64,000 nt of DNA from Phascolomyces articulosus (taxonomy: Eukaryota; Mucoromycota; Mucoromycetes; Mucorales; Lichtheimiaceae): NCBI GenBank assembly GCA_025677815.1, contig JAIXMP010000030.1, positions 1 to 64,000 on the forward strand, given 5' to 3'. The translations under genes and the position numbers were made by a program. The notes beneath the pieces are model-generated. The model was not told where the DNA came from. It was given only the letters and a program-made list of their open reading frames with translations, and did not search any database. Within the stretch, counting starts at the first letter, position 1, and each line of letters opens with the position of its first letter. Positions 39,086-60,200 of this stretch are shown piece after piece.

Positions 39086-41220
39086 AGCGGACCCCCATTT
39101 TTTGCAGCCCCGTTTTTTGCAGTTTCTCGCTTTTTGCAGCTTTTTTTTTTAAAAAAAATCAGCTTACTACTTAATAAAATTGCAGTTTTCTCACTTTTTG
39201 CATTTTGCAGGCGAAATTTAAGACCCTGCAAAAATCCACTATTAATTATAATGGCTGGAAGATCTGGGATAGCGAGGTTCGAACCAATGATATTTAAAAT
39301 AATATATTTCTATTAAATTTTTTCTCTATACTACTTTAAAAATTGAAGTAATTGTGAAGTGTTGCTTGTTTTGTCTGAGATTTTTGTCTATAAATGTCCC
39401 AGATTCTACGAAGTTCTTTTTTAACTAAAATATTTTCAGGTTCATTTAAGACGCTTATAGCCTTTTCAATAACTCTAACCTTTTCTGGGATGTATATACT
39501 ACAGGTTCAGGTTCATTTTGCAACTGCTGATTGTCATTAGAAGTTTCAGTACTAAATGCATTATTAACTTCTTCATCAAGAACAGCATAAACAATCTCAT
39601 CATCGGAAAGTACTGGGTGAGTAGCTGCAATTTCCTCAGGTGGATCAGCATTAAAGGGGATATTGCTAACACTTCTTTCCCATACATCATAACCAAATGG
39701 TTATTGATTTGACCAAGGGCTTCCTTTTCTGCATTATCTAATCCAATATTCATACTTTCAGCTGCAGGTTCTACAACTTTGTTTTTCTAAAACAATTTGC
39801 AATAGTTGTAGCAGTTACTGACTCCCATGCATCAAAACACCACTTCATTTCAAGCAAAACATCAATTCGAAACACATTCCCATTGTTTGGGGGGGGGAGT
39901 CCTTTTTCTAAACGGCCTTGGATATTCTCATATGCTGCCTCGTATTGTTGATTCTTACATACATCAAATTAATAATACTTACCAGAAATATATAACCCTA
40001 TCTACATACATCTGATATAAAATTACTTACTTATAATGGGTCCTGAAGCTTCTAATAATCCCAGCATCTAATGGTTGCATCATTGATGTAGTATTAGGGG
40101 GGAGGTAAAGCAACTCAATGTTGGTCGGTTCATAGTCACAGTAATATCCAGAAAAATTATCCAACATAAGAAGGATCTTACGTTCCTGGTGTCTCATAGA
40201 ATTATCCAAATTTCTTAGATACTCTTTAAAAATGGAATGTGTCATCTATGCATTGGCATTACCACGATAAAAGGAAACATCAACCATTTTTTTGAGCTCC
40301 TTATTTTGTTTCTAATAAAAATAATAATAATTACCTGATAAGAATATGAGTATAAATTTGATAAGAATAAATATTACCTTATCAAAACTTGCAGGTCTTT
40401 TAGCCTTGCCAATGAACCATGGATGCCATTTATTACTGCCATCAGCATTTACAGTAAACACTACTGTTAATCTGGCCTTAGCTTGCTTGGTTCCTTTGAA
40501 CGGAGCAGAGGAAATTGCTGTCATTGGGGCACTTGCATAAAACAATGCTGTCTCATCCATATTATATATGTCTTGAAGTACATATTGACTTGTCTTTTGT
40601 TGGATCTCAGGTAGCTTAGCCAATGCAAGTTCATAGTTTGCAGAACTACCTTCACCATGTAAGCGCTGCATTTTCAGACCATAACGTTTCTTAAAACAAT
40701 CCTGCCAACCAGGGGAAAAGCATATATCCTCTGTGATATTCAACTTGTTCTTCAAATCGTTGCTGGCTTTTATGATTAAATCCCAGTTAATTAGAGTATA
40801 AGAGTGAAATCTTTGCTCGATCCACATATACAAAGCATATTCAAGTTTCTACAAACATATACAATTTATTTATTTATTATATAAATGTAACCGGAGAGAT
40901 AAATGGGAGCTCAAAAAAAAAATAAAAATAAAAAAAATAAAAAAAAAACATACTAGATATTTTGCACGAGACTTTTTCTTATCATTTATGTCAGTGCCAT
41001 TTTCTTCATCTCTCTTTCTTTGGTTCATCTTTCTGGCAATGGTGGTTTCATTAGGTAGTTTTTGAAGCTTATATTTTGCTTTCATCCACTGGAGTAAATT
41101 ACTATAAGTAATACTACAACCTTGGTTCTTTTGTGTGCATAGATGCTCATATGCTGCATCATACATTTCATCAGTAAGTTTTTGGTATGTAACTGATAAC
41201 AATACTAATGTTTTAAGCAA
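39086..41220 (-). mobile_element. pogo/Tigger-like DNA transposon remnant
   Basis: A TA followed by CAGCGGACCCCCATTTTTTG at 39,086-39,105, then several TTTTTTGCAG subterminal repeats, resembles a pogo-type terminal inverted repeat. The opposite terminus was not found in 41,221-41,961, so one end is lost or diverged. The transposase is described separately. Confidence 0.65.
39499..41166 (-). pseudogene. pogo-like transposase (CENP-B/DDE family), inactivated
   Basis: The N-terminal part has helix-turn-helix-like ITYSNLLQWMKAKYKL. An intron (40953-40849) joins SRAKYL to KLEYALYMWIEQRF, the CENP-B-like DNA-binding region. The catalytic Asp residues are visible as YNMDETALFY, ILLMLDNFSG and MMQPLDAGII. 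Exon 40848-40378 is intact. The next exon starts at 40311, and a TAG at 40248-40246 interrupts NANA-MTHSIFKEYL, where relatives have Trp. Beyond 40,027 the frame is further broken near a C-run at about 39,890-39,898. The single nonsense codon inside an otherwise well-kept core suggests fairly recent death. Confidence 0.8.
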
Positions 41221-41961: not shown

Positions 41962-43308
41962 GGTGAGTTACAATGTATTAAGGCGCTGGAAAAGAACCTC
42001 TAAATCGGTTATATCATGAATGAAAACTAGAATATCGTCTGCATATGCCAGTGCTTTAATAGGGAGCGGTGCTGGAATTGTTGGAGGTGCTTGATTATGT
42101 GTTGTAAATGTGTATCCTTGGAAACTGACATCACTTTGAATTGAACGTAGAAATGGTTCAATAGCTAAGTTGAACAAAATCGGAGACAAGGGATCCCCTT
42201 GCCGTAAACCCCTTTGTTGGTGTAGTGTGTTGCTAAGATGGCTATTGATATTGATTCGAATATGTTTGTTGAAAAATAATGTAGTAAATGTGTTGATGAT
42301 GGCTTCAGGAAAACCAAACTTTTTCAAAGTGCTAGTGAGATAGGCGTGGTGTATGCGGTCATACGCTTTTTCCTGATTTAATAAAAGGCCAATGTCCTTG
42401 TTATTGTGTTGTTGAGCGTTTTCCATAATAATACGAGCCATAAGTCCACCAGTAGCAATAAAGCGATTTGGCATAATAAAGCCTGTTTATTGAGGGCTGA
42501 TCAGATCCTGTGCATTTTGGACAATCTGCACATTCAGTAGACGAGTAAAAATTCTGGCATCAGCATTGATTAAGCTGATGGGTCTCCAGTTTCGTAGCTG
42601 AGAAAGGTCCCCTTTTTTTGGAAGCAGTCGAATTACCGTTTCTGTCCATGATGTAGGAAATATACTGCGATTTAGAGCATCATTATATACTTTACATACA
42701 ATATTTTCTGCAGACGGATGTTTGAATACCAAATTCCAAATTCCATATGGTAACTCATCTAGTCCATGGCTGATTCTTTTTGGTGTTCTTGAAGCACATG
42801 TTATCAAGTCGTCCAAAGTAAATTCTTCCATTAAAATTTCTCGATCAATATCATCAAGTTGACATTCTGGTGGTATATGTTGATGGAGTTGTTGAATAGC
42901 ATTATCATCGACTGGTGTAGGAGTATATAGATCCTGGTAGAAAGTAGTTGCAGCCTCTTGTATAGAGGTTATTGTATCGCACAGTTCACCAGGAGTTGAG
43001 GGATTAATTAATGGTGGGATGTTAATTTATGCTTGGTTGCGTACTGCAAGTTTCTTGAGGTAGCCAGCTGAGGTTTCGCCTAGTTCCCTCCAACGTGCAC
43101 CAGCTTTTAGTGCAAGCGTATCGCATGCTTCTTTTTGTGCTATGGATATTTGTTTTACAATGATTGTGAGGGACCACGCTTTAGTTGCTGCGCGCCGCAG
43201 ATGCTTTTTGCCGTAGGAATTTGTTCCGCTAAGATTGTAGTTTGGCCAGATATTGGGTGGTTTTATTAATACGTTCCCGGTTGTATTTTTGCAAGATCTT
43301 TTTAAGTG
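41962..43308 (-). mobile_element. LINE copy 1, middle fragment (reverse transcriptase)
   Basis: Minus-strand frames 42831-42487 and 42474-41968 encode reverse-transcriptase blocks: LLPKKGDLSQLRNWRPISLI, the palm motif LLLNQEKAYDRIHHAYL (here Asn replaces the first Asp of the equivalent LLLDQEKAYDR in copy 2), QQRGLRQGDPLSPILFNLAI and ALAYADDILVF. A stop interrupts the frame at about 42,484. The fragment continues to 43,308, where a 1,020-bp element is inserted. It matches copy 2 at 58,865-60,180. Confidence 0.85.
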
Positions 43309-43576
43309 GAGACTTGTTAAAAGCTGTGAGTTTTCAAAAGCCTTTAGTTACATAATTACCATATGTTAGGTTTCTTACAGAAAGTCCAGAACACCTTCAA
43401 AAAATCGAAGATTTTTCTTGGACACCTTCTTCTACCCCTAGAATACTAGAAATCGGAATAATTTTAGTTTTTGAGATAAAAAATTTAAAGTTATTTATTA
43501 TAAAATTATTTATTTATATATAATATCTTAAATTATGATTGATTTTTATATATCAAAACAAATCTGATTAGTTGCC
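43309..43576. repeat. Left direct terminal repeat
   Basis: 268 bp, closely matching 44064-44328 with a few substitutions and small indels. It contains a 7-bp-arm hairpin (AAAAATC-GAA-GATTTTT, 43400-43416) bracketed by two copies of ACACCTTC (43391-43398 and 43422-43429). Confidence 0.88.
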
Positions 43577-43942
43577 TTCCTGAAATATCTCTTCAATCAT
43601 CTTTTGATACTTATTTTTACTACTATACATAGTCCAATTAACTAAACATCTGACTTCTTCTATAAAAACAAAACCTTTTCTCTTCATCCAACCTAAAAAA
43701 TATTTACTAATAATTTCTTCTTTTTCCTTTTCTGAAACAATTGTTAAGTTAATATGTGGTCTTTTCTTTTCTAATGTTTCATCATAATATGGCCCATCAT
43801 ATAATATATCCCTTATTTTTAACTTCTTTGACCATTTCAATAAATTATTTCTAATATATTCCATATCTTTACCCTTACAATCTTGTTTTTTCTCATCAAT
43901 TGTAAGAACAACAGCATAATATTTTTTTTCTTGTTTTTGCAT
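43568..43942 (-). CDS. 124-aa protein with HUH/rolling-circle-initiator-like motif layout
   Basis: The preferred start is ATG 43942; an upstream ATG at 44014 would add a Lys run encoded by a poly-A tract. The protein alternates strands and helices: strand YYAVVLTID (8-16, motif-I-like), helix MEYIRNNLLKWSKK, strand pair IRDILYDGPY and RPHINLTIV (61-69, motif-II-like H-hydrophobic-N), helix EKEEIISKYFLGWMKRKG, strand FVFIEEV, then a helix with WTMYSSKNKYQKM (motif-III-like Tyr106-x-x-Lys109). This order matches replication-initiator endonucleases of the HUH class. The helicase domain found in virus-type Rep proteins is absent. The match rests on motifs only. The stop codon lies inside the left direct repeat. 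Confidence 0.55.
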   Translation of the reverse strand: MQKQEKKYYAVVLTIDEKKQDCKGKDMEYIRNNLLKWSKKLKIRDILYDGPYYDETLEKKRPHINLTIVSEKEKEEIISKYFLGWMKRKGFVFIEEVRCLVNWTMYSSKNKYQKMIEEIFQEGN

Positions 43943-43998
43943 CTTATTTTTTATAATAAAATAAAATTCAATTTTTTTTTTTTTTTTTTTTAGAAAAC

Positions 43999-44016
43999 AT
44001 GTGAATGTATTCACAT
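43999..44016. repeat. Hairpin with 8-bp arms upstream of the small gene
   Basis: ATGTGAAT and ATTCACAT are separated by GT, just 5' of the A-tract leader of the minus-strand gene. It may be a nicking or regulatory hairpin; function is inferred. Confidence 0.6.
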
Positions 44017-44063
44017 CAGAAACATTGACTTCAAAAAAATTAAAATTTTTCTTGCCTTAGAAG

Positions 44064-44328
44064 GAGACTTGTTAAAAACTGTTAGTTTTCAAAAGTCTTT
44101 AGTTACATAATTACCATTATGTTAGGTTTCTTACAGAAAGTCCAGAACACCTTCAAAAAATCGAAGATTTTTCTTGGACACCTTCTTCTACCCCTAGAAT
44201 ACTAGAAATCGGAATGATTTTTAGTTATCGAGATAAAAAATTTAAAATTAAAAAAAATTATTTATTTATCTATAATATCTTAAAATATGATTGATTTTTA
44301 TATATCAAAACAAATCTGATTAGCTGCC
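44064..44328. repeat. Right direct terminal repeat
   Basis: 265 bp, same sequence and orientation as the left repeat, including the hairpin and the paired ACACCTTC motifs. Confidence 0.88.
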
Positions 44329-44979
44329 AAGTGTGGATTTTAAGTTTTCCCATTGTTGTTGTGGTGTTTGATTAGGATCAATACGCTCGAAGAATTGACT
44401 TAGCTGAGAAGCTAGTTCACTTCGGAAGTCCTTGTAGTCAAGAATTAGTGGGTTTACCTCTCCAATAACCTTTACCCGTTTTCGTTGGCCCCAGGTCGAA
44501 GGTGGTTAATAATAAGGAATGATATGCCCAACTAGTAGTGAGGAAGGAGACCTCTTTGTTTTTAATGCAATTTGTAAACTGGGTTGATGCAAACATATAA
44601 TCAATTGTAGACATTGTGCTAATGCTCCCACGAAAAGTTCGTAAAGTTGTCTTCAGCATGATCTGGGTTGACGTAATTGATGAATTCTTGTGTTAACATA
44701 TGGAACCACTCTGGTGTAGCATTTCTATGGTAGTTTGGTCTTTGGTAGCTGCAGTTGGAATCTCCAGTTATAATTAAACGTTGACGATAAGATTGATTGT
44801 TGTCAAAAATTATCGAATTTTACAGGTTGGAGTAGAAATGTTGATGGTGTTTGGGTGATGTTGCTGGTGCATACAGTGTAAGTAAGAAAAAAGGTTGAAA
44901 GCCATTGCGTGTATGTTCGACTTTGACAAGAATATGTCGGTGGTCGTTATAGATTTTTTTAGTTGTGTAAGATTAATAT
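44329..44979 (-). mobile_element. LINE copy 1, 5' fragment (endonuclease domain), truncated
   Basis: It resumes the LINE exactly after the 1,020-bp element and encodes part of the APE-type endonuclease (STIDYMFASTQFTNCI, LLLTTFDLG) in broken minus-strand frames. The match to copy 2 stops at about 44,979, inside the endonuclease domain, so copy 1 is 5'-truncated. Confidence 0.8.
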
Positions 44980-47344: not shown

Positions 47345-48650
47345 GGTCATTTTATAATTAATGACATTATTATATTCTAGAGGAGTAGCACGTGTCACCT
47401 CCCTTTCTACCGGAAAAAGATATTGCAGCAAAGTTAATTTACATAAGAACTATCAGAAAAATAGATTTGTTGTTAGGTAGTAGTAAAACTTACACATTTA
47501 TCTGTTGTCACTCCCCATGGGTGACACATATTCTTTAAGTATAAATGTATTGTTTTTTATTTATATTACGTCATAACACAAAGGTCCCTTTTCATTTTGC
47601 TTCTAATTGCTGAATGTGCATACCCATTGTTTGTATTTAAGTCTAACATAACATAACAAAGATTCTTACAACAAAGGACACATTCTCATATGTGCTCTTT
47701 ATTGAGCTTGTTTCGTTATTAGGTTTAAACAATGGACAGAATTATAATGGACCATTTTCAGTGTTTTGACAAGATTACATTTAAAAAGTATAAAAAGCCT
47801 TGAGTAGAATACCCACTAATAATGATATCATTTGTCTGTTGTTGTATAACTGCTGCAACAAATGCATACTACTTTATTGATCCTTATATTTTCCCCTTAG
47901 TCAAGTTGAAAAAATATATTAATATTCACAGAAGTTTACTGGATGAATTACGATATGAATTCTTAAGAAGTATCAAACCTACAGTGGCTATGGTTTCTTT
48001 TGGGCGGTTTTAGAGTTTGGGCTTAGAATATTATCGTTTTGTGCAATAGTGTATCTGTGTTGCACAAAGACGTGGAGCTAGGCTTTTCCTTTCGTTTATT
48101 CTAACAACCTTTTACGTTTTTATCATATTGCTTCCTAGTCGCTCAGCAGCAGTAAATCAAGTAATCAACGGTATGATTAAAAAAATCATATTATTACAGT
48201 CGATTTGACGAAAAAAAAAAGTAAAGAACAGTAACTACCTTAATCGTCCGCATATAAACAAATATAGCTCAATGTTTATTTATGAGATGGGTTGATGACG
48301 ATCTTTAAAGTTTTGGCTTAGCGACTTGAAATATGTCACACAAGTTTAGTGAGAAAAAAGGTATATTTATAAGCGTTACTTTGTTCTCTTTGGTAAAACA
48401 CAACAGTTTTATTTTTCATTTTCTATTTACCACTTCCATCACTACCATTCATTTGATAGAAAATCCTTAAAAGAGCGCGTATTTACTACCACTAAATCCC
48501 ATCACCACTGCATATTCTCTTGCAATTTTTTCAATAATACCATTCATTTCTTCTTTATCTGTGAGTAAACACCTCTCTTTTCTATTTCTATTATCTTTGA
48601 TTATATTGAAACTAACTTGTCAAACTTATTTATGTATAATCATAGAAACA
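47345..48650. other. Intergenic and leader of the HET-domain gene
   Basis: Includes a 105-bp repeat shared with the window end (47,910-48,015) and two stretches with GTGTCACC or GGGTGACAC near 47,390 and 47,515. Upstream of the HET gene, GTGAGT at 48,561 and CATAG at about 48,645 fit a leader intron that ends 5 bp before the ATG. Confidence 0.5.
47910..48015. repeat. Dispersed repeat, copy A
   Basis: It matches 63,895-64,000 with about 15% differences. Both copies contain TTCACAGAAGTTTACTG and end TTTTGGGCGGTTTTAGAGTTT-like. The second copy runs off the window, so the full repeat is longer. Confidence 0.75.
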
Positions 48651-50333
48651 ATGTATATTACCTACGAGACGGCACAATCTTTTGGGAATGTCGAATATGA
48701 ACTCACCAAACGTGTAAAACCACCCATAACAGTCCCAAATGATTTGCCCAAACCAGATTTTATGCCTACCAAACTTGTTCGTATTTCTGACATGAAAGTA
48801 GTCAATGGATCTCAAGTCAACGAAGGTTACTGCGCATTATCGTATTCATGGAATCAATCTGGTGATATAAAACAAGATGACAATAGAAAATACGTTCGAG
48901 TCGATGATGGCGAACACAAAATTATTTCTTATGACAATATTTTTCCTGATATGATAATTCCTAATTACAAAATGCCTATTGAATATGAATATAAAAGTAT
49001 TGAAACATGGAGTAAAATGTCAAAAATGTATCACGTTTTGAAGATCATTGACAATAAAAATTACCACTTTACAAAAACAACCAAACACGCCAAATTTGAA
49101 CCCGTCATTCAGCAAATATGTCAACAATTCAACATCAAATATATATGGTACGATCAATTATGCATCAATCAAAACAACAAAAAAGAGAAACAACGTGAAA
49201 TACGCAACATGCATCAAATATACGAAAATGCTTATTGCGCCGTTGCCCTTGTACCTGAATACGCTCGTGGTAACTTTTTTAATGTAAACAAACAACAATA
49301 TTTCAAGCGTTTATGGACTTTAGAAGAAGCAATAAAGTCAAAAAGATTATTATTTGTCGGAAGAGATATACATGAATGGGGAGATAGTAAAAACCCTGAA
49401 GTAGGTCATTTAGCAAAATCATCTTCTGAACTAAACGTTTCGCAAATTCTATATCATGCACATCAACGAACAAGCACCAATGATCACGATCGTGTTTTTG
49501 CTCTCATACATCTTTTTCCAGAATTTATCGACAAAATCAAAATCGATTATGATCAACCATTTGAAAACTTGATGATTCAATTTTATGGTCTTTTGGCACA
49601 AAAAGAAATCAGTATTTTGTCTTTTGGAAATTATAAATGGGGTTATAAATCAACAATCAAAAAATACAAATTTTTGCCATCATGGACCGGTGTTAATGGT
49701 AGACACATTACACATGATGTAACGACCTCATTTCAAAAGTACGATATAATTGGAAAAACCATGCGTGTTAAAGCTACTTATGTTACAAACAACCAATCCA
49801 TCGATGACGACAATTTAACTATACGAAAAGAAGATTTACCACCAATTCCTGACGATATCAATGATGGTGATAATGAAGACGATTATTATTTGTGCATACT
49901 TGTTCAACTATCTAAAGAAAAAGAAATGAATAGAGTTTTATTGGATCCTTATGGTCACTATTGGAAATTTGATAGAGAATCATTTTTCGATGATATAAAT
50001 GAAGAACTTCAACAATTGTCACGATTCATGGAGATAAAAAAAGAAAACTTGTGCTGGTGTAACATAGATGACGTAGAAAGTGACGATTATCCAATGGTTG
50101 CAAGTATTGATTTTGATGATTTAACAGACAGTTTGGATGACCCTTCTGCACAATATGTCATCCTTTCTGAAATTTCGTTTGAATGGATTGATTTTTATAA
50201 TTGGTTCTACCCAGTCATAAAAAAAAAGAAAGGTGAAAAATATTATAAAGCTATTGGATGTTGTTGCATACAAAGTAATGAAGATTTTTTCTCTGACTGT
50301 AATTTACCCAAAGAAACATTTTCGATTCAATAA
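48651..50333 (+). CDS. HET (heterokaryon incompatibility) domain protein
   Basis: This is a 560-aa intronless coding region. HET-domain hallmarks are GYCALSYSWNQSG (ALSYSW at residues 62-67), YIWYDQLCINQ (WYDQLCINQ at 166-174), the following helix REIRNMHQIYENAYCAVALV, and RLWTLEEA (220-227). In ascomycetes this domain triggers cell death on non-self recognition; its role in this lineage is unknown. The C-terminal half (ILSFGNYKWGYK, FLPSWTGVNG, DDYYLCILVQLSKE) follows the usual HET-protein arrangement of a Trp-containing 'PSWTG' block. The open frame upstream to 48,561 lacks an ATG and looks like a leader intron. The protein is rich in Asn, Asp and Lys, and the gene sits between transposons. 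Confidence 0.88.
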   Translation: MYITYETAQSFGNVEYELTKRVKPPITVPNDLPKPDFMPTKLVRISDMKVVNGSQVNEGYCALSYSWNQSGDIKQDDNRKYVRVDDGEHKIISYDNIFPDMIIPNYKMPIEYEYKSIETWSKMSKMYHVLKIIDNKNYHFTKTTKHAKFEPVIQQICQQFNIKYIWYDQLCINQNNKKEKQREIRNMHQIYENAYCAVALVPEYARGNFFNVNKQQYFKRLWTLEEAIKSKRLLFVGRDIHEWGDSKNPEVGHLAKSSSELNVSQILYHAHQRTSTNDHDRVFALIHLFPEFIDKIKIDYDQPFENLMIQFYGLLAQKEISILSFGNYKWGYKSTIKKYKFLPSWTGVNGRHITHDVTTSFQKYDIIGKTMRVKATYVTNNQSIDDDNLTIRKEDLPPIPDDINDGDNEDDYYLCILVQLSKEKEMNRVLLDPYGHYWKFDRESFFDDINEELQQLSRFMEIKKENLCWCNIDDVESDDYPMVASIDFDDLTDSLDDPSAQYVILSEISFEWIDFYNWFYPVIKKKKGEKYYKAIGCCCIQSNEDFFSDCNLPKETFSIQ

Positions 50334-57269: not shown

Positions 57270-60200
57270 TTATAATTTAATATAGGTTGTGATGGCGTTT
57301 ATTGCTGTTGTAGCAATCTGTTGAGGGATAAAGTGTTTTTCGTCAAAAACAGTTGCCCAGTGAGCTCGCCAAATATGAAGTAATATATAGGAACATATGC
57401 GTAGAAATTTTCCATTTGGTATTTGGTGTTGTACTCTAGCATTTTTGGTTATTGACTGAAGTATCGCGTATAGCGGTGGATGTGTATGGAAGAGGTGGTG
57501 CCAAGCTAGGAACCAAACTTGTTTCTTTTTTGGACACCAGATCAGAAAGTGGTTGAGCGATTCTGTAGGATGTTGGCATATACGGCAGTGTGGAGATGTT
57601 ACAAATGATGTACTGATTCTGTGTAGTAGATTTCCATAAGGAATTGTTGAATGAAAGATTCGGAATAAGATGTTGCGTGTTTTGTGGTCCATTTTGGTAG
57701 ACCAAAAGTTATTCCATCTGATGTGATTGTGTTGGGTATAGTTCGTCTGTTGGGTTCGTATGTGGAGGTGGTATATTTTAGGTTTGGGAGATGATAATGC
57801 GTTATGCTGCAGTAGTATACCAGCGCAAAGTGTATCGTCAACGTTTCCGATTTCTCCACTATGACCCCCACCTGGATGATTTTTCGGGAGCAGGAGTGTG
57901 GCGAAGAAAGGGCGGATAAAGATACAGAATTCCTTTGTGCCTGTGAGAAACCGTTTGAGCAGTGTAGGATGCGGAGGGTGGTCGGAAACTTGTAGTGGAC
58001 GTAAATGTTGTAAATTATGATCAAATGTAAAGAGGTCTTTTACTTGTAGTGTGTGATAACCCGGTCTAGGAGGAGGTCGGTTGTCAGGGTTCACATCAAA
58101 TATACTAGTAGCTGGTAGTTGTAGTGACGTAGCAATTGTCATTGGTGGTGCTACAGGATAGGTGATCGATAGCTGGTCCATAGTACGATAGATAATATTA
58201 ACTGGTGATGCTGTTGAAATTGCCTTTTGTTTTCATGCGTTGGGATCCAAAAGTAATAGACGATGATCAGATATAAATTTACTTGTGCTAGCCATGTGAT
58301 GAATCAAACATAATATGTATTCTGGCAACGTATCTAGTTCTTCTAGCATTGGAACAATCCATCGTAACTGAAGTGCATTTTGTTGTGTTATTGAATCTAA
58401 AAGACCCACCCCTCCTTGAGCTCTTGGTAAACACATTTTTTTGTAGGAGACCTTTGGGAACATTCGACTTGACAAGAAATTGGATATTATACTTCGAAGC
58501 TTTGAGTGAAATTTGTGTACTGGTGCACCGGTCACTCGTAAAATATGCCAAAGTTTTGACAAAATCAGCACATTAAGGATTGTTGCTCGTTCACGAATAG
58601 AGAGACCTCGGTGTTCGTGCATTTGACAGTGGCGTTTGATGTTCTCTAATATGTTTGACATAAATCGGTCCAATTTTCCAGAGGAAGATGACAAAGGAAA
58701 CCCAAGATATATCAAGGCATCGGTGGAAGTTCTATCATGACATCCGGGAAGCCCATGTTCCTGCAGGGCTGAATTCCAATCTGATGATGGTTGACCAGAC
58801 AAAGAGATGGTCTGGGTTTTGGTCTTGTTGAATTTTGCATTGGAGGCATTCTGGTATGTATTTATTAAGATGCTGGAAAAGAACCTCTAAATCTGTTATA
58901 TCATGAATGAAAACTAGAATATCGTCTGCATATGCCAATGTTTTAATAGGCCGTGGTGTTGGAATTGTTGGAGGTGCTTGATTATGTGTTGTAAATGTAT
59001 ATCCTTGGAAACTGACATCATTTTGAATTGAACGGAGAAATGGTTCAATGGCTAAGTTGAACAGAATCGGAGACAAGGGATCCCCTTGCTGTAAACCCCT
59101 TTGTTGGTGTAGTGTGTTGCTAAGATGACCATTGATGTTGATTCGAATATATGTGTTGAAAAATAAAGTAGTAATCGAGTTGATGATGGCTTCAGGAAAA
59201 CCAAACTTTTTCAAAGTGCTAGTGAGATAGGCAGGGTGTATGCGGTCATATGCTTTTTCCTGATCTAATAAAAGGCCAATGTCCTTGTTATTGTGTTGTT
59301 GAGCGTTTTCCATAATAATACGAGCCGTAAGTCCATTAGTAGCAATAAAGCGATTTGGCATAAAGCCTGTTTGCTGAGGGTTGATCAGATCCTGTGTATT
59401 TTGGACAATCTGCGCATTCAGTTGACGAGTAAAAATTTTGGCGTCAACATTGATTAAACTAATGGGTCTCTCCAGTTTCGTAGCTGAGAAAGGTCCCCTT
59501 TTTTTGGAAGCAGTCGAATTACTGTTTCTGTCCATGATGTGGGAAATATACCGCGATTTAGAGCATCATTATATACTTTACATACAATATTTTCTGCAGA
59601 CGGATGTTTGAATACCAACTTCCATATTCCATATGGTAACCCATCTAGTCCAGGGCTGCTTCTTTTTGGTGTTCTTGAAGCACCTGTTATCAAATCGTCC
59701 AAAGTAAATTCCTCCATTAAAATTTCTCGATCAGTATCATTTAGCTGACATTCTGGTGGTATATGTTGATGGAGTTGTTGAATAGCATTATCATCGACTG
59801 GTGTAGGAGTATATAGATCCTGGTAGAAAGTGGTTGCAGCCTCTTACATAGAGGTTATATTATCACAGAGTTCGCCAGTTGAGGGATTAATCAATAGTGG
59901 AATGTTAATTTGTGTTTGGTTATGTACTGCAAGTTTCTTGAGATAGCCGGCTGAGGTTTCACCTAGTTCCCTTCAACGAACACCAGCTTTTAGTGCAAGC
60001 GTATCGCATGCTTCTTTTTGTGCTATGGATATTTGTTTTTCGATGATCGGGAGGAACCACGCTTTAGTTGCTGCAGATGGTTTTTGTCGTAGGAATTTGT
60101 TCCGCTTAGATGGTAGTTTGGCAAGATACTGGGTGGTTTTATTAATACGTTCCCGGCTGTATTTTTGCATAATCTTTTTAAGTGTGGATTTTAATTTTTC

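Follow-up and report, generated by a model that had tools for sequence, protein, structure and literature searches.

A single-copy 1-kb insertion with long direct terminal repeats in the fungus Phascolomyces articulosus, a possible minimal rolling-circle element

Introduction

Helitrons encode a helicase and insert between A and T without duplicating their target, and Replitrons, the subject of work by Craig in 2023, reportedly have a single-tyrosine HUH domain and no helicase. Here, we analyse an element in a 64,000-nucleotide stretch of Phascolomyces articulosus DNA (contig JAIXMP010000030.1, positions 1 to 64,000; the window), which occupies positions 43309-44328, has direct repeats at both ends and encodes a single protein of 124 amino acids. 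Replitrons are described as 900 bp to 4 kb long, without inverted repeats, with target duplications of 2-8 bp, a gene for an HUH endonuclease and direct terminal repeats of just 5-11 bp (PMC10741241). The element resembles them in its size (1,020 bp), its 5-bp duplication and the lack of inverted repeats; unlike them, it has terminal repeats of 268 and 265 bp, and the HUH identity of its protein is putative. It differs from Helitrons in having a 5-bp duplication and in containing only the 124-aa open reading frame (ORF).

With the circular Rep-encoding single-stranded (CRESS) DNA viruses and the bacterial pCRESS plasmids, such as p4M, the element shares motif order and spacing, the predicted core topology of the protein and hairpins in the putative control region. 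It differs from both in having neither a helicase domain nor a capsid ORF, in carrying HIN in place of HUH or HUQ and in its unit of just 755 bp. The nonanucleotide NANTATTAC, found on a stem-loop in most CRESS genomes, is absent, TATTAC does not occur in the element, and the single ANTATTAC of locus L001 lies outside it.

Terminal-repeat retrotransposons in miniature (TRIMs), including the fungal Helenus elements as summarised in PMC10886601, are likewise short direct-repeat elements with a 5-bp duplication, whereas in the element no primer site, no tRNA in the repeat and no TG/CA ends were found, and it possesses an ORF and is present in a single copy. Plant retrozymes, in the outline given by PMC11722881, are comparable in size, in their two direct repeats, in the structured repeat and in a unit suited to a circle; the element differs from them by its ORF and by the absence of a primer site and of any match to the hammerhead or another ribozyme. 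The geminivirus-like transposon of Tuber melanosporum also combines a Rep-type gene with a repeated fungal element, but is described with 37-bp inverted repeats, no obvious duplication, transposase ORFs and a Rep recognisable by sequence (PMC3198968). Because Replitrons, CRESS elements, TRIMs, retrozymes and Helitrons each have a tested defining feature that is missing here, we did not file the element under any of them. No such element in fungi is described in the titles and abstract beginnings of the literature that was searched.

Results

The insertion of 1,020 bp in a copy of a long interspersed nuclear element (LINE) is confirmed as a discrete unit. The unit and both its ends are secure, since AAGTG flanks it on both sides and occurs once in the empty copies, three of four other LINE copies are exact empty sites and the fourth aligns across the junction. 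Genome searches with the two flanks led to three and four other places. The uninterrupted CTTTTTAAGTGTGGATTTT is present in three of the four other copies (C35:60180, C67 and C100), and in the empty copy of the same window AAGTG stands at 60180-60184. The fourth copy, C82, is more diverged (88%), and its alignment spans the junction with about 40 bases of the left flank. A preliminary description of this DNA had recognised the AAGTG duplication and an empty site at the same LINE position, and both hold, with three copies now showing the uninterrupted site. A terminal inverted repeat was not found (9 of 20 end positions agree), nor were TG/CA ends; the element ends in GAGAC/TGCC (or GGCAG/TCTC). 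Its GC content is 24%, compared to 28-39% across the 2-kb bins of the window. The window holds two minus-strand copies of the LINE, at approximately 41-45 kb and 57-61 kb, and endonuclease and zf-RVT domains were recognised in the second.

The genome searched is an assembly of 47.4 Mb in 110 contigs. The searches score the best candidates only and skip very common words; their negatives are strong, not absolute. A DNA search with the repeat found no second copy, solo repeat or larger relative in this assembly; likewise, neither the 45-nt repeat core with up to three mismatches nor the 124-aa protein has another place in it. The search for the repeat had been proposed in the preliminary description as a check, and with neither solo nor full further copies, membership in a gag-pol retrotransposon is without support. 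A larger gag-pol parent was rejected, since these searches of the best candidates found the repeat, the pattern of the 45-nt core and the protein at this one place only. The insertion is real, has sharp boundaries and an unusual anatomy, and was found once in the assembly. The features are listed in Table 1.

Table 1. Position of the features of the element and its flanks in the window.
Feature	Position	Strand	Remark
Left target duplication AAGTG	43304..43308	.	direct reading; single AAGTG in empty copies
Direct repeat L, 268 bp (3' terminal repeat relative to the ORF)	43309..43576	-	contains the last two ORF codons and the stop
98-nt block identical in L and R	43362..43459 (R: 44118-44215)	.	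longest unchanged stretch, permutation p 0.0135
124-aa ORF with stop	43568..43942	-	codons 43571-43942, stop 43568-43570 inside repeat L
20-A run (ORF strand; 20 T on plus) in the leader upstream of the ORF	43972..43991	-	letters
Diverged extra copy (22/26) of the repeat's CTTCAAAAAATCGAAGATTTTTCTTG core	44029..44054	.	just outside repeat R
Direct repeat R, 265 bp (5' terminal repeat relative to the ORF)	44064..44328	-	hairpin-rich
Right target duplication AAGTG	44329..44333	.	direct reading

The region between the repeats measures 487 bp and the period is 755 bp, in agreement with the earlier estimates of about 265 bp for the repeats and about 755 bp for the unit. Repeats L and R are distinguished by 3 indels and by 12 substitutions, the latter in 263 aligned positions, which corresponds to 2.3% per repeat. 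The LINE copy carrying the insert has private substitutions at 106 of 1,929 aligned positions (5.5%), the three empty copies have 10, 14 and 21. This LINE copy is much older than its sisters or changes faster. These substitution counts fit two repeats that started out identical when the element inserted, and an insertion younger than its host LINE copy. Such a dating would be expected for an origin like that of long terminal repeats (LTRs) as well as for an origin from a circle and therefore favours neither. Since the element has drifted so little, the intactness of its ORF is hardly informative on selection following the insertion.

On the ORF strand, both repeats contain AATAAA as well as a TATA-like box; the TATA-like box of R is located at 44302-44304, and AATAAA is found in L at 43514 and 43499. 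Within the 98-nt block, two copies of the repeated 8-mer ACACCTTC surround a short hairpin, and we propose this block as a putative origin or iteron region. When the 121-bp leader at 43943-44063 was shuffled 5,000 times, a match to the CTTCAAAAAATCGAAGATTTTTCTTG core as good as that of the extra copy beside R never arose. Either strand of repeat R, taken as single-stranded DNA, has a stronger fold than expected (z -3.4; 0 of 200 and 1 of 200 shuffles were as good), and repeat L folds less well than R (z -2.2; 5 of 200). The strongest hairpin (44064-44099) lies at the 3' end of repeat R in ORF orientation; a single hairpin of this strength is not unusual and was seen in 21 of 100 shuffles. Taken as RNA, the ORF strand of repeat R has a better fold than any of 200 shuffles (z -3.76), and given this predicted fold an RNA role of the repeat is possible. 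No tRNA is present in 43200-44500 and hence none in the repeat, and no Rfam match reached the gathering score in the window; with the matches in the element being at chance level, a tRNA- or other RNA-bearing element was rejected.

Dinucleotide shuffling of the element produced an ATG-started ORF of this length in 3 of 3,000 cases, so that the 124-aa ORF is longer than expected by chance. The lone 124-aa gene and the absence of TG/CA ends had been noted previously, as had the motifs VLTI(D), H-I-N and Y-S-S-K in the order of HUH initiators, and the positions of VLTI (residues 12-15), HIN (63-65) and YSSK (106-109) bear out this order. With the three-motif pattern loosened to accept HIN, 82 of 300,000 and 150 of 500,000 protein shuffles matched, and of the 115 distinct open frames in the window and the fetched loci that reach 100 aa or more only one did, the frame of the 124-aa ORF itself. 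The tyrosine is preceded by an IEEVR step, which resembles VEPRK of the plasmid p4M RepA and the stretch IEKAK reported for PCV2 (PMC7826260). The motifs together with this step were found in 12 of 500,000 shuffles, with a pattern that was chosen after the fact. Searches for relatives gave 38 pattern matches in IMG/VR and 177 in GTDB genomes, none of which was confirmed, no relative among plasmids and phages and a single PHROGs match (E 0.13), the matched family having no known function. A profile of the p4M family did not match the ORF significantly.

Two single-sequence AlphaFold runs, one with the full 124 aa and one with residues 5-120, yielded models of moderate confidence (pLDDT 64 and 68). 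The predicted arrangement is beta1-alpha1-beta2-beta3-alpha2-beta4-beta5-alpha3, and in both models beta1 bears motif I, beta3 bears HIN and beta5 ends with Tyr106. This predicted order of strands and helices equals that of the Rep nickase core, given as beta1-5 with alpha1-2 in PMC7826260. The models predict a ferredoxin-like fold with the strand order of Rep; the HUH fold is defined by an antiparallel sheet of five strands and a catalytic tyrosine that faces the histidines. For the first model, no match named Rep or HUH was found among the 50 matches listed in each of PDB, VIA and BFVD; the third-ranked BFVD match, a protein without characterisation from a crucivirus-like circular element, has an E value of 0.026 that is below significance. 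For the second model, no match named Rep or HUH was found among the VIA matches listed. Among the 50 Foldseek rows listed for this second model are 2ec2, 2xm3 and 2vic (E 0.058-0.091, none significant), which we take to be HUH transposases.

Discussion

We tentatively favour the reading that the insertion is a minimal HUH-type rolling-circle element, which would encode a small single-tyrosine HUH-like nickase without a helicase and would have been inserted with terminal redundancy; this may well be correct, at somewhat less than an even chance. On the protein side, it is supported by the motif order VLTI-HIN-YSSK, the IEEVR step, the predicted Rep topology and the three transposases listed. 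On the DNA side, support comes from the folding of R as single-stranded DNA, the unchanged core with its 8-mers around a hairpin and the extra core copy adjoining R, as well as from the single copy without solo repeats and from repeats that fit identity at insertion. A rolling-circle mechanism is favoured because it makes use of the only gene of the element.

From these features we infer a nuclease activity, an origin, a circle and an integration route. Tyr106 would be the nucleophile of the nickase and His63 would be part of its metal site. The protein might nick a hairpin-bearing origin inside the repeat, and the unit of about 755 nt would then be copied by polymerase and helicase of the host. 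A longer-than-unit product would be joined at a 5-nt staggered break, resulting in a single insertion into the LINE copy of a terminally redundant linear molecule of approximately 1.35 units. With an origin on either side, the unit could in principle be set free once more.

Several results weigh against this reading. The motifs of Rep proteins are given as UUTU, HUH and YxxK (PMC6668415), and VLTI and YSSK fit, whereas HIN is without the second His of HUH or the Gln of HUQ. No homologue of the ORF was found in the protein database (9 candidates, none at E <= 10), and it has no match in Pfam (gag included), NCBIfam or the PDB sequences. Structure searches with Foldseek returned general ferredoxin-like folds and nothing at E <= 0.001. 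Of the HUH assignment made in the preliminary description, the motif order and the predicted order of strands and helices stand; the fold matches are unspecific, the HIN motif deviates and a sequence relative is missing. Taken together, the models and motifs make the HUH identity of the protein plausible, not demonstrated.

The main rival explanation, which we judge not very likely, is a TRIM-like miniature non-autonomous LTR retroelement with non-canonical ends and an ORF that is an orphan or was captured; the reverse transcriptase and integrase of an LTR retrotransposon would have moved this element in trans. Direct repeats flush with a 5-bp duplication, within the 4-6 bp expected, suit this explanation, as do near-equal repeats compatible with identity at insertion, a total length of about 1 kb and, in each repeat, an ORF-strand TATA-like box together with AATAAA; 5-bp duplications are also reported for the fungal Helenus TRIMs (PMC10886601). 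The ends of the element are not TG/CA and thus speak against it, although LTRs with other ends are mentioned for other families (PMC5659011). Beside the repeats, the complement to tRNAs is at most 6 nt on one side and below 6 nt on the other (24 distinct tRNAs of the genome, a partial set), while random places in the window reach 6-10 nt, and a self-priming match does not exceed 6 nt. As judged by eye, there is no clear purine tract, only the short run AGAAG|GAGA or AGGAA|GG. Neither a second copy nor a partner with the same repeats was found, and no Pfam family, gag included, matches the ORF. If the element were a TRIM, its non-canonical ends and its private gene would make it unusual.

Chance integration of another extrachromosomal element, for instance a small linear or circular plasmid of cytoplasmic or mitochondrial location with a gene that is not HUH, appears unlikely to us. 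The 5-bp duplication would then stem from staggered-break repair, and the single copy, the lack of known relatives, the low GC content and the unspecific ferredoxin-like prediction would all be in line with it; the order and spacing of the motifs argue against it, and repeats that end exactly at both termini would still need explaining. A retrozyme-like element, with a self-cleaving ribozyme in the form of the structured repeat and a unit of about 755 nt that spreads as circular RNA, is highly improbable. The RNA fold of R on the ORF strand would suit such a repeat, and plant retrozymes are described as 1-1.5 kb long with target duplications and LTRs (PMC11722881), but none of the four matches that Rfam gave for the element within E 10, the best of them at E 0.087, is a ribozyme, a primer site for the 24 tRNAs is absent, and the element carries an ORF.

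Should the protein be an HUH nickase, the rolling-circle reading would describe a very small self-initiating element of a eukaryote, in which stand-alone Reps, Replitron-like transposons and LTR-like terminal redundancy would be united in one 1-kb object. It is rather improbable that a new class of eukaryotic rolling-circle elements is represented here, namely a replicon of about 755 bp that would contain hardly anything besides a repeat bearing the origin and a 124-aa HUH nickase that has a variant metal site and no helicase. Its integration would produce a 5-bp duplication and a long terminal redundancy, so that the inserted copy would have an origin at each end and could give rise to its own circle.

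Genomic neighbourhood

A fragment of a Tc5/CENP-B-like transposase is located at 40312-40833 on the minus strand (HTH_Tnp_Tc5 E 1.7e-6, DDE_1 below the cut-off). The window also encodes a PXB/PX/DUF3818 protein, which, like the HET-domain protein described next, points to a probably fungal genome. Approximately 4 kb from the element, at 48561-50333 on the plus strand, a 590-aa open frame contains a HET (heterokaryon incompatibility) domain (PF06985, E 4.5e-15).
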